This document shows, piece by piece, positions 25,282 to 30,584 of a stretch of 64,000 nucleotides of DNA. The notes beneath the pieces are model-generated. The model made no database searches and was not told the DNA's origin. It worked only from the letters and a program-made list of their open reading frames with translations. The translations under genes were made by a program, and so were the position numbers. Origin of the DNA: Pyrinomonadaceae bacterium (lineage in GTDB: Bacteria > Acidobacteriota > Blastocatellia > Pyrinomonadales > Pyrinomonadaceae); assembly GCA_019186825.1 (NCBI GenBank), contig JABARP010000006.1:62001-126000 (forward strand). Direction: 5' to 3'. Positions within the stretch are counted from its first letter, which is position 1; each line of letters starts with the position of its first letter.

Positions 25282-27135
25282 CTATTCCAGGACCTCGAAG
25301 ACCTGAAGAGCGTATTTGACGTTGCCGAACGGGGCAGAGACCTGGACGCCCTGGATCGAATCGCGTACTTCGAGGAGCGACTCGCGGGCAATATTGATTC
25401 CTTCTTCTCGCGCGTGTTCCTTGCTCTGGTCGGATGCGATCCGCATTCTTTCAAGGATGTCGGCGGTAACGTTAACGCCCGGAACCTCGTTGTGCATGAA
25501 CTCGGCGTTTCGATACGAGATGAGCGGCCAGATACCCGCAACGATCGGTATGCGAACGTGTGAGATGCGGTCGAGAAAGTGCATCAGCTGTTCGGTATCG
25601 AAGACCGGTTGAGTGATGGCATATTCGGCACCTGCCTCGACCTTCCATTCAAAACGCTTGATCTCTTCGTCGAGATTGACCGCACCGGGATTTACGCCGA
25701 CACCGATCGAGAATTCCGTCGGCTTGCCGATCGGATTGTTGCCGAGGTCGAGGCCATGGTTGAGCTTGTTGACCATATTCGTAAGGCCGATCGAATCGAT
25801 ATCAAAGACGGCGGTTGCGTCAGGATACGGTCCCATTTTCGGCGGATCCCCGGTGATCAAGAGCAAGTTGTGAAGGCCGAGGGCTGCGGCACCGAGAAGA
25901 TCGGACATCATCCCAAGAAGGTTCCGATCGCGGCAGCAGTAATGTAGCACCGGTTCGATCCCGACCTCTTCGTTGACGAGAACAGCGGTCGCAAGCGCGG
26001 ACATTCGCGTCTGTGCTCGGGGGCCGTCGGGAATGTTGACGCCGTCAACGCCTGCCTCGTGCAGCAAGCGGATCGACTCGAGAGTTTTCTCGGCGTCGCA
26101 GCCTTTCGGCGGCAGAACTTCGACAGAGGTTACGAATTCACCGCGAGCGATCTTTTTTGACCAAAGGCTGCGGTCTTCCCGACGAACTACCTGAATGTCC
26201 GGCGGTTTGATCTCGGCGACAGCGACGATCTGGCTGCGTGCTTCGCTGATCGCTTGTCGTGGACTTATGGAACGGACGGCGTCGGCGATCAGTTTGATGT
26301 GCGTTGGCGTTGTGCCGCAGCATCCGCCGATGAATCTCGCACCTGCAGAGACAAATCGCTTTGCAAAGGTCGCCATATATTCAGGCGAACCCATATAGAA
26401 CTGGCGTCCCTGCACGTCACGCGGAAGGCCCGCGTTCGGTTGTGCAGAAAGGTCTTTTGACGTAACCGCACGCATTTTTTCGAGTGCGTTCAAAATATGA
26501 TTGGGGCCCATTCCGCAGTTGAGGCCCACAATATCGGCACCGAGTTCGTCAAGACGCGTCGCGATCGTCTCCGGCGTACTTCCGAAAGCGGTCTTGCCAT
26601 CCATCTGGATCGTCATCTGGGCGACTATCGGCAGATCGCTCGCTTCGCGGACGGCTTTGATCGCCTGCTCGATGATCTCAAGTTCGGAGAAGGTTTCGAG
26701 GACGAACAGATCGACGCCGCCTTCGAGCAGGGCGTTCACCTGTTCGAGGTAGAAACCTTTCGCCTCGTCGAACGATGTCGGCCCGAAAGGTTCGATGCGA
26801 AGGCCAAGTGGGCCGATCGCACCTGCGACAAAGGCCTTTTCACCGGCAGACTGCCGAGCGATCTGGGCTGCCGCAACGTTGATCTCGTGCAGCTTTGATT
26901 CGAGTCCGTAAGGCAGTAGCTTTGGACGCGTTGCACCGAACGTGTTCGTCTCGATGATATCGGCACCGGCGGCAACATATTCGTCGTGAACCTCTTTGAC
27001 GAGGTCGGGCTGCGTCAAATTGAGCTCATCATAACTGCGATTGATGTAAATACCTTTATCGTACAGACGTGTGCCGACGGCGCCGTCAAAGACGTAAACG
27101 CCTTCGCCGCCGATGAGGTCGCGAAACTTTCTCAT
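25282..27135 (-). CDS. Bifunctional homocysteine S-methyltransferase / methylenetetrahydrofolate reductase
   Basis: Two enzymes are fused in 617 residues. Residues 1-300 are a homocysteine S-methyltransferase with zinc cysteines C207 (VGLNCG) and C272/C273 (GGCCGTTP). Residues 330-617 are a MetF-type reductase (VEVLPPKGCDAEKTLESI, LITGDPPK). Together they would reduce methylene-THF and make methionine. The start MRKFRDLIGG is used because the region just upstream is a SAM-II-like riboswitch with a terminator, which excludes the longer start. The fusion is a known arrangement in Firmicutes and other phyla. Confidence 0.93.
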   Translation of the reverse strand: MRKFRDLIGGEGVYVFDGAVGTRLYDKGIYINRSYDELNLTQPDLVKEVHDEYVAAGADIIETNTFGATRPKLLPYGLESKLHEINVAAAQIARQSAGEKAFVAGAIGPLGLRIEPFGPTSFDEAKGFYLEQVNALLEGGVDLFVLETFSELEIIEQAIKAVREASDLPIVAQMTIQMDGKTAFGSTPETIATRLDELGADIVGLNCGMGPNHILNALEKMRAVTSKDLSAQPNAGLPRDVQGRQFYMGSPEYMATFAKRFVSAGARFIGGCCGTTPTHIKLIADAVRSISPRQAISEARSQIVAVAEIKPPDIQVVRREDRSLWSKKIARGEFVTSVEVLPPKGCDAEKTLESIRLLHEAGVDGVNIPDGPRAQTRMSALATAVLVNEEVGIEPVLHYCCRDRNLLGMMSDLLGAAALGLHNLLLITGDPPKMGPYPDATAVFDIDSIGLTNMVNKLNHGLDLGNNPIGKPTEFSIGVGVNPGAVNLDEEIKRFEWKVEAGAEYAITQPVFDTEQLMHFLDRISHVRIPIVAGIWPLISYRNAEFMHNEVPGVNVTADILERMRIASDQSKEHAREEGINIARESLLEVRDSIQGVQVSAPFGNVKYALQVFEVLE

Positions 27136-27144
27136 ACAGATACC

Positions 27145-27171
27145 AAAAAAGTCCCGCCAAACCAGCGAGAC
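27145..27171 (-). terminator. Riboswitch-controlled intrinsic terminator
   Basis: On the minus strand GTCTCGC and GCGGGAC pair with one wobble and are followed by six T, ten bases before the start codon of the methyltransferase gene. It lies just after the SAM-II-like aptamer, so it probably serves as the expression platform. Confidence 0.75.
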
Positions 27172-27192
27172 CTTTTTCAAAAACTTGAATAT

Positions 27193-27251
27193 GCTTCAGC
27201 TGTTTAGCGGATTATTTAACGTGGTCGCAAGTCGCAATAACTCACCACGAT
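27193..27251 (-). ncRNA. SAM-II-like riboswitch aptamer
   Basis: Read on the minus strand, the stem CGTGG/CCACG encloses GTGAGTTATTGCGACTTGCGA and is followed by GTTAAATAATCCGCTAAACA. The order CGTGGTGA - CTTGC - CCACGTTAAA - GCTAAA is the conserved core of SAM-II riboswitches. It lies directly downstream of a promoter and upstream of a terminator and a methionine-synthesis gene. High S-adenosylmethionine would be expected to reduce expression. The class is assigned from memory of the consensus, not from a covariance search. Confidence 0.8.
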
Positions 27252-27262
27252 CTTTATATTCG

Positions 27263-27291
27263 ATATTGTGCCTTTCGACGCGTGGTGTCAA
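27263..27291 (-). promoter_or_regulatory. Promoter of the SAM-II-like riboswitch transcript
   Basis: TTGACA (minus strand, 27291-27286) and CAATAT (27268-27263) are separated by 17 bases. The expected transcription start near 27256 is a few bases before the aptamer. Confidence 0.75.
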
Positions 27292-28586: not shown

Positions 28587-30584
28587 ATGAGTTTCGACAA
28601 GACAAAGGCGATGCGAAATGCTGAAAAGTATGTCGCACAGGGGAAGATTCGACTCGCAATTTCCGAGTATCAAGCCGTCGTAGCCCACGATCCGCGGGAC
28701 ATCACGACGATGAACATGCTCGGCGACCTTCACGCAAAGACGTCCGAAAGGCGGCAGGCCGTGGAATGTTATATGAAGGTCGCAGAACACTATGCGACAC
28801 AAGGATTTGCCCAGAAAGCGATCGCGATCTACAACAAGGTCGCGCGGCTTCAGCCTGATTCGATCGAGGTCTCGACCAAACTTGCCGAGCTTTACAAGGT
28901 AAAGGGTTCGCTGAGCGAAGCGCGTTCTCACTACGAGACGCTTGCGAAACATTTTGAGGCTAGCGGCAAACGCATCGAGGCCCTTGCGATGTGGAAACAG
29001 ATCGCACTGCTCGACCCGAACAACACCGAGGTTTGCGTAAATCTTGGCGAATCGTATTTGAAAGAAGGCCAGGCTGAGGATGCTGCCGAGGCGTTCGCCG
29101 AAGCGGGCGGGCGATTTGGCCGCCATGGCGCGCACGAAGATGCGATCAAGATGTATCACCGCAGCCTTGATATTCAGCCCGATGCACTACGCACGCTCGA
29201 CGGGCTGATCCACTCTTATTCAGCTCTCGGACGCGTTTCCAAAGCGGTCGAGTTCCTCGAGGGAATTCTCGAAAAGGAGCCGTACAATCGCGACATCCTC
29301 TATCTCCTGATCGATTGTCACATTGATTCTCAGAATGCGGCCGGTGCAGAGCGTGCCGTTCTCAAACTTGTCGAGATAGAACCCGCAAACTACCCGAAGC
29401 TTCTTGACCTCGTCCGTCTCTATCTGAATACGAATGATCTTGATTCGGCAGCGCGGATCCTTTCGATGTCGTCCGAATACCTGCTCGCGGGCGGACAGGC
29501 CGATGAGTGCAAGCGTTGGATCGACGAGATTCTCGGGCACGATCCATCGCATGTACCCGCGCTGCGGCTGCTTGTGCGGTACAGTTCGTGGATCAAGGAC
29601 GAAGAGGCGTTTCGCGTTTCGCTTGAAAGGCTTGCGGTGTCCGCACGTGCGGCGAACGAGGTTGACGATGAGAGATTCGCACTCTCGCAGCTTGTCGTTG
29701 TACGGCCGTTCGAAACGCAGTTCAGCGAAAGGCTCGCAGAATTGAAAGAGCTTCATGGCTTTTCCGACGACGATGTGGATGCGGAGCTTCTCCGGGCCGG
29801 ATTCGACCAGCCGGAAACCGTCGCAGCCGAGATGGTTGCGGCTGAGGACCACACGCCGGTCGTCGTCGAGCCGGCTGTCGAAGAAGCGGCACCTGAACCC
29901 GTGGCATTTGCGGTCGAGCAGTCGAACGGCTTCGTCGCCGAGGTCGAAGCACCCGAGCCCGATGAACACAAGCTCGCAAAGGATCTTGAGAGCATTAGCT
30001 TTTACCTCGACAATGAATATCACGAGCTTGCGGCAAAAGCGATCGACGAGGTCGAGAAGGAATTCGGAGATCGTCCGGAGATCGTCGAGGTAAAGAAAAG
30101 GGTTGCGGCGCTGCGGAATAAGGCAGCTTCTCACCACGAACTGACGCTCGAAGACATGCGAAGCGAGTTCGGCTTGAACGACGAACTGCCATCGGACGAG
30201 GATTACGATACGAAATATCACACCGCCATTGCGTATCAGGAAATGGGATTGACCGAGGACGCGATCCGAATATTTCAGGAAGCGATCACCCTTGTTTCGC
30301 CGCTTGACGGCACGCGCAGATTCTTCCACTGTGCGAATCTGCTTGGTCATTGCTTTATGGCGACCGGGCACGCAAGCATGGCCGTAACATGGTTCTCGCG
30401 TGCTCTTGAGACGCCGAATCTGGATGATTCCGAGCGTCACGGCCTTTGGTACGAGCTCGCCACAGCCTACGACGCGGCGGGAAATTCGGTCGATGCTCAT
30501 CGTTTTTACGAGCAGGTCTATACCGAGAACGTGGATTTTCGAGACGTGGCAAGCCGCGTCCGAAGCGAGATGGCCGTGCATTAG
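28587..30584 (+). CDS. Large tetratricopeptide repeat protein
   Basis: The 665-residue protein is a chain of TPR units (for example ISEYQAVVAHDPRDITTMNM, AIAIYNKVARLQPDSIEVST and ALAMWKQIALLDPNNTEVCV). A charged, acidic linker rich in Glu, Pro and Ala occurs near residues 405-465, and further TPRs follow at the C-terminus. There is no signal peptide, so it is probably cytoplasmic. TPR proteins of this size usually serve as scaffolds; the partner is unknown. The upstream intergenic space of about 220 bp holds a possible promoter. Confidence 0.88.
   Translation: MSFDKTKAMRNAEKYVAQGKIRLAISEYQAVVAHDPRDITTMNMLGDLHAKTSERRQAVECYMKVAEHYATQGFAQKAIAIYNKVARLQPDSIEVSTKLAELYKVKGSLSEARSHYETLAKHFEASGKRIEALAMWKQIALLDPNNTEVCVNLGESYLKEGQAEDAAEAFAEAGGRFGRHGAHEDAIKMYHRSLDIQPDALRTLDGLIHSYSALGRVSKAVEFLEGILEKEPYNRDILYLLIDCHIDSQNAAGAERAVLKLVEIEPANYPKLLDLVRLYLNTNDLDSAARILSMSSEYLLAGGQADECKRWIDEILGHDPSHVPALRLLVRYSSWIKDEEAFRVSLERLAVSARAANEVDDERFALSQLVVVRPFETQFSERLAELKELHGFSDDDVDAELLRAGFDQPETVAAEMVAAEDHTPVVVEPAVEEAAPEPVAFAVEQSNGFVAEVEAPEPDEHKLAKDLESISFYLDNEYHELAAKAIDEVEKEFGDRPEIVEVKKRVAALRNKAASHHELTLEDMRSEFGLNDELPSDEDYDTKYHTAIAYQEMGLTEDAIRIFQEAITLVSPLDGTRRFFHCANLLGHCFMATGHASMAVTWFSRALETPNLDDSERHGLWYELATAYDAAGNSVDAHRFYEQVYTENVDFRDVASRVRSEMAVH

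Follow-up and report, generated by a model that had tools for sequence, protein, structure and literature searches.

Does a gene for methionine synthesis in a member of the Pyrinomonadaceae (Acidobacteriota) stand under the control of a SAM-II riboswitch, and if so, how would such a switch act? SAM-II is considered a mainly alphaproteobacterial class, and its narrow spread has been interpreted as pointing to a recent origin (PMC3766115). The question is raised by a leader on the minus strand of the 64,000-nucleotide stretch of genomic DNA analysed here (the window), in which a first-pass annotation had recognized a SAM-II-like element with a promoter and a terminator. The features discussed below are:

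27263..27291 (-): predicted promoter; TTGACA 27291-27286, 17-nt spacer, CAATAT 27268-27263
27183..27258 (-): SAM-II (SAM_alpha, RF00521) aptamer match; 43.1 bits, cut-off 36, E 2.3e-6
27220..27249 (-): P1 hairpin; CGTGGT 27249-27244 with ACCACG 27225-27220 (Rfam alignment, compensatory arms in relatives)
27235-27234 (-): P2 5' strand GC, in the P1 loop
27199..27210 (-): CCGCUAAACAGC, 3' strand of the pseudoknot with the SAM contacts and predicted 5' strand of the antiterminator (Rfam alignment, P2 conservation, MFE and truncation folds)
27200-27199 (-): P2 3' strand GC, within CCGCUAAACAGC
27154..27166 (-): predicted antiterminator 3' strand GCUGgUUUGGCGG, inside the terminator hairpin; 12 bp, one bulge, -15.9 kcal/mol
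27145..27175 (-): predicted intrinsic terminator hairpin with U-tract; -14.7 kcal/mol, z -4.8, equivalent hairpins in relatives
25282..27135 (-): gene for a bifunctional homocysteine S-methyltransferase/methylenetetrahydrofolate reductase (MTHFR); NF006396, PF02574 and PF02219, ATG at 27135
G000:C16:78408-78483, equal to L003 8409-8484 (-): second SAM-II aptamer of the source genome; 33.8 bits, own terminator, before metH

Identity of the Aptamer and of the Downstream Gene

We found that the elements follow one another on the minus strand in the order given by the first-pass annotation (TTGACA, CAATAT, CGTGG...CCACG, TTAAA, GCTAAA, terminator, ATG), and its class assignment was borne out by cmscan, in which the RF00521 match lies above the cut-off and spans the complete model (1-79); no further Rfam match in the 64-kb window reaches the gathering threshold. 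A chance resemblance to SAM-II is extremely improbable: the motif is small and the score just 7 bits above the cut-off, but the E-value is 2.3e-6, the core-motif pattern has one hit in the window and none in 100 simulated Markov windows, the site precedes a methionine gene, and conservation of the aptamer throughout the family was looked for and found. The folding stability of the aptamer alone is ordinary (z -0.28), which is to be expected of a pseudoknot, so that folding energy provides no argument for it.

Two classes with related folds and the same ligand were rejected. The region reaches 13.8 bits with the SAM-II long loop (RF01726), whose cut-off is 44, while SAM-V (RF01826) is absent both among the region matches at E<=10 and from the source genome, the latter being weak evidence of absence since the control genomes equally lack a match. 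SAM-I (S-box, RF00162), which is likewise a SAM OFF switch before methionine genes but has a fold unrelated to SAM-II, was detected neither in the source genome nor in the sampled family members listed. A phage search returned no match. In another genome (G400; L110/L198), an RF01726 match of 48.6 bits lies upstream of a TonB-plug/outer-membrane barrel gene, possibly encoding a SAM-regulated importer.

The gene downstream of the riboswitch is the fusion gene predicted at first pass: its 617-aa product reaches 748.3 bits with NF006396 (cut-off 453) and combines domains PF02574 and PF02219. Orthologues share an M(K/R)xFRxL start at the position of ATG 27135, so this codon, also the one chosen initially, is the likely start; a longer alternative frame from TTG 27180 would have its start at the base of the terminator. 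The fusion gene and metH, which follows the second copy of the aptamer, fit the methionine pathway. Elsewhere in the window, a 453-aa open frame (29220-30581, -) lies wholly opposite the gene for a TPR-repeat protein (28587-30584, +) and is most likely a shadow ORF.

Conservation of P1, P2, and the Promoter

For the comparison of structures, 124 aptamers were reduced to 70 distinct arm sets. P1, which comprises 6 bp in the window, is pairable in every one of the 70; as the arms were selected by best fit, this proportion is partly built in, while the diversity of the arms is not. The arm types include CGTGG/CCACG, CCTGG/CCAGG, GCTGG/CCAGC, GCGCC/GGCGC, TCGCC/GGCGA, AGTGG/CCACT, TGTGG/CCACA and CGTCG/CGACG and, judging by the sequences, their diversity among relatives is compensatory change. 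The pseudoknot, on which the initial proposal depended, is conserved as well. With the positions of P2 counted at constant distances from TTGC and CTAAA, its first core pair is standard in 68/70 and its second in 67/70 distinct sequences, the latter occurring as GC, TG, AT, CG, or TA. The observed P2 pairing (0.736) exceeded that in all of 1000 arm swaps (0.644, sd 0.019, maximum 0.721). The window P2 is a short helix, in which C-G and G-C, its only 2 Watson-Crick pairs, are followed by a T-T mismatch and T-G; four-pair helices, e.g., CAAC/GTTG and CGTC/GACG, are found in diverged members.

The element shares with the founding description of RF00521 (Corbino 2005, PMC1273637) P1, the TTAAA...GCUAAA core, the P2 pseudoknot, a promoter just upstream, a terminator downstream, and a methionine gene. 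It differs in a loop 3 nt shorter than that of the model, in a P2 of 2-4 bp where the class has a GC-rich helix, in the genes regulated (the fusion gene and metH), and in a terminator that pairs with the GCUAAA strand, a trait absent in the four rhizobial leaders tested.

A promoter upstream of the aptamer is plausible from its sequence. Both hexamers named at first pass are present, and TTGAC recurs upstream in 94/103 related leaders (chance ~0.08 each), across which the -10 columns are also conserved. However, while the -35 hexamer is perfect, CAATAT is a weak -10 (3/6 of TATAAT), and a consensus promoter scan did not flag 27263..27291.

Terminator, Antiterminator, and Proposed Mechanism

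The terminator claimed initially was supported by the fold of the hairpin at 27175-27147 (-14.7 kcal/mol, z -4.8) with its U-tract, although a terminator scan of the window did not report 27175-27145, probably because A-U pairs draw the T-run into the stem. We determined that CCGCUAAACAGC (27210-27199) can form 12 bp, interrupted by one bulge, with GCUGgUUUGGCGG (27166-27154) at -15.9 kcal/mol; a pairing as good as that of the terminator stretch is reached by about 0.03% of the 30-mers in the window. This helix is already present in the unconstrained MFE structure of the leader. When successive 3' truncations were folded, the antiterminator stood at 0.98 during completion of the hairpin and the terminator at 0.1-0.36 at the end, whereas making CCGCUAAACAGC unavailable raised the terminator to 0.99, in a folding model that is free of pseudoknots and received the sequestration of this strand as a constraint. 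Within this model, the terminator and an antiterminator that uses the aptamer strand are mutually exclusive in the window leader.

Given the class membership of the aptamer, its conserved P1 and P2, the terminator, the competing antiterminator and the pathway genes, all computed here, the riboswitch is very probably a transcriptional OFF switch acting on the fusion gene. At low SAM, CCGCUAAACAGC would be free to pair co-transcriptionally with GCUGgUUUGGCGG, which would block the terminator and allow the fusion gene to be transcribed. In the SAM-bound state, GCUAAA and the AGC after it would be locked in the P1/P2 pseudoknot; CCGCUAAACAGC being thereby sequestered by the aptamer, the terminator would form and transcription would end directly before the start codon. 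The AAA in GCUAAACAGC would be shared by SAM binding and the antiterminator, and the UUU of the terminator loop would serve the antiterminator only. For the window RNA, binding of SAM, actual termination and the direction of the response are expected, and published SAM-II work supports both binding and SAM-induced termination: aptamers of this class bind SAM and are often followed by terminators (PMC1273637), and at Sinorhizobium meliloti metZ, termination is predicted on SAM binding and a short RNA rises at high SAM (PMC9373788). The likeness to metZ lies in the prediction that SAM binding permits an intrinsic terminator to form.

A mainly translational output, in which a SAM-dependent structure keeps ribosomes from the region of the ATG and the hairpin terminates inefficiently, has precedents, as the SAM-II elements of the Sargasso Sea and of S. 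meliloti metA act on translation (PMC9373788) and as the second aptamer of a tandem in genome G145 overlaps an AGGAGG directly before the ATG; the window ATG, moreover, lies only 9 nt past the U-tract. Nevertheless, we regard it as unlikely, because no Shine-Dalgarno sequence was found at the usual distance from ATG 27135 or overlapping the aptamer, and because a stable hairpin with a T-run, complementary to the aptamer strand, lies downstream across the relatives. Still less probable is a ligand-independent attenuator, i.e., a decayed aptamer followed by a terminator limiting expression whatever the SAM level. The terminator is indeed the default fold in many relatives, and at S. meliloti metA the terminator past the SAM-II element is not predicted to be SAM-responsive (PMC9373788); against this, core nucleotides, P1 and P2 are maintained by compensatory change over many genera, and the window leader switches in silico. 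A transcriptional OFF switch remains the preferred reading.

Second Copy at metH and Wiring Among Relatives

The second SAM-II match of the source genome (33.8 bits) falls below the cut-off of 36. It lies 191 nt before the 1184-aa metH (TIGR02082, 1362.7 bits), with a tRNA directly upstream of the aptamer. The metH leader goes through the same order of events, but the completed terminator prevails (Pterm 0.96 with the strand free), so that kinetic control would be needed there. This copy, the antiterminator and the family-wide distribution were missing from the first-pass annotation.

Hairpins with a T-run are found downstream of the aptamer across the relatives. In 108 leaders, the GCUAAA strand with 12 further nt is more complementary to the terminator than to shuffles keeping stem pairs and loop composition, the median z being -2.1 for fusion, -3.1 for metH, -3.0 for thrC, and -1.6 for metB/Z leaders (three leaders), gene classes assigned from short protein motifs. 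At most loci classed as "other", a small ORF separates the riboswitch from metH. Cognate strand-terminator pairs beat swapped ones (double-centred mean -2.57, permutation sd 0.23, 0/5000), and a UAAA helix of at least 6 bp occurs in 64/107 distinct leaders against ~20 expected; since relatives of one family are not independent samples, these statistics are support and not probabilities, and the terminator finder chose wrong hairpins in a few leaders (L014, L048, L041). A contingency test of the base after GCTAAA on the leader base opposite was too noisy to serve as evidence: few sequences vary, and the best complement sometimes lies outside the terminator. At full-length equilibrium most relatives choose the terminator unblocked (median Pterm 0.88 in fusion leaders), and their switch would therefore have to be kinetic. 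In four rhizobial SAM-II leaders, which make up the whole alphaproteobacterial comparison, no such UAAA helix occurs, and by inspection the terminator arm there seems able to pair with the GC-rich strand of P2.

Several relatives carry tandem arrangements, of which 44 cases are known for SAM-II (PMC9481103). In class-level relatives (L106, L111, L046, L101, and L102), tandem SAM-II aptamers precede a threonine synthase gene, several with a terminator-like hairpin per aptamer and, in L102, with an SDR gene in between; we found no open-access report of SAM-II before threonine synthase. At two loci from different families, L098 (G145) and L104 (G330), the gene preceded by tandem SAM-II-like aptamers encodes an AAA_5 ATPase and has no obvious connection with methionine metabolism. 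In G145, where a SAM-I riboswitch is present too, the second aptamer extends into the AGGAGG, which suggests control of both termination and translation. In turn, two SAM-II-like aptamers ~120 nt apart precede the SAM synthetase (metK) gene at L045 (G085).

Distribution Within the Phylum and Its Meaning

The claim of SAM-II in an acidobacterial genome is backed by an exact-pattern scan of named genomes, in which 61 stretches matched and the taxa, where named, were Pyrinomonadaceae, Blastocatellia, Acidobacteria/Acidobacteriota, and Chloracidobacterium. SAM-II is present in 40/41 genomes of the genus, usually in two copies each, in 28/28 sampled family members (counted from a kinship-ordered sample table listing no matchless family member), and in 52/396 genomes of the phylum sample. 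SAM-I, detected in 148/396, is the commoner class there outside the family. Both classes co-occur in one genome (G145) versus 19 expected without phylogenetic structure, a near exclusion within the phylum which is confounded by phylogeny; Barrick and Breaker did not encounter the two together in any species (PMC2258182). In the open-access literature, we found no report of SAM-II together with Acidobacteria or Blastocatellia, and no description of a family-wide SAM-II with its own terminator wiring.

The window element is a known riboswitch class, extended to a further lineage and equipped with a lineage-typical expression platform. We tentatively suggest, with slightly more doubt than confidence, that Acidobacteriota may hold an old, vertically kept SAM-II lineage replacing SAM-I, in which the SAM-contacting GCUAAA strand, and not a GC-rich P2, serves as the antiterminator arm mirrored in the terminator. 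That SAM-II is found throughout an acidobacterial family and sporadically in other families of the phylum speaks for greater age or mobility of the class. With SAM-I and SAM-II nearly excluding each other, the phylum offers a natural system for studying the replacement of riboswitch classes, and the antiterminator provides SAM-II with a simple, testable mechanism.
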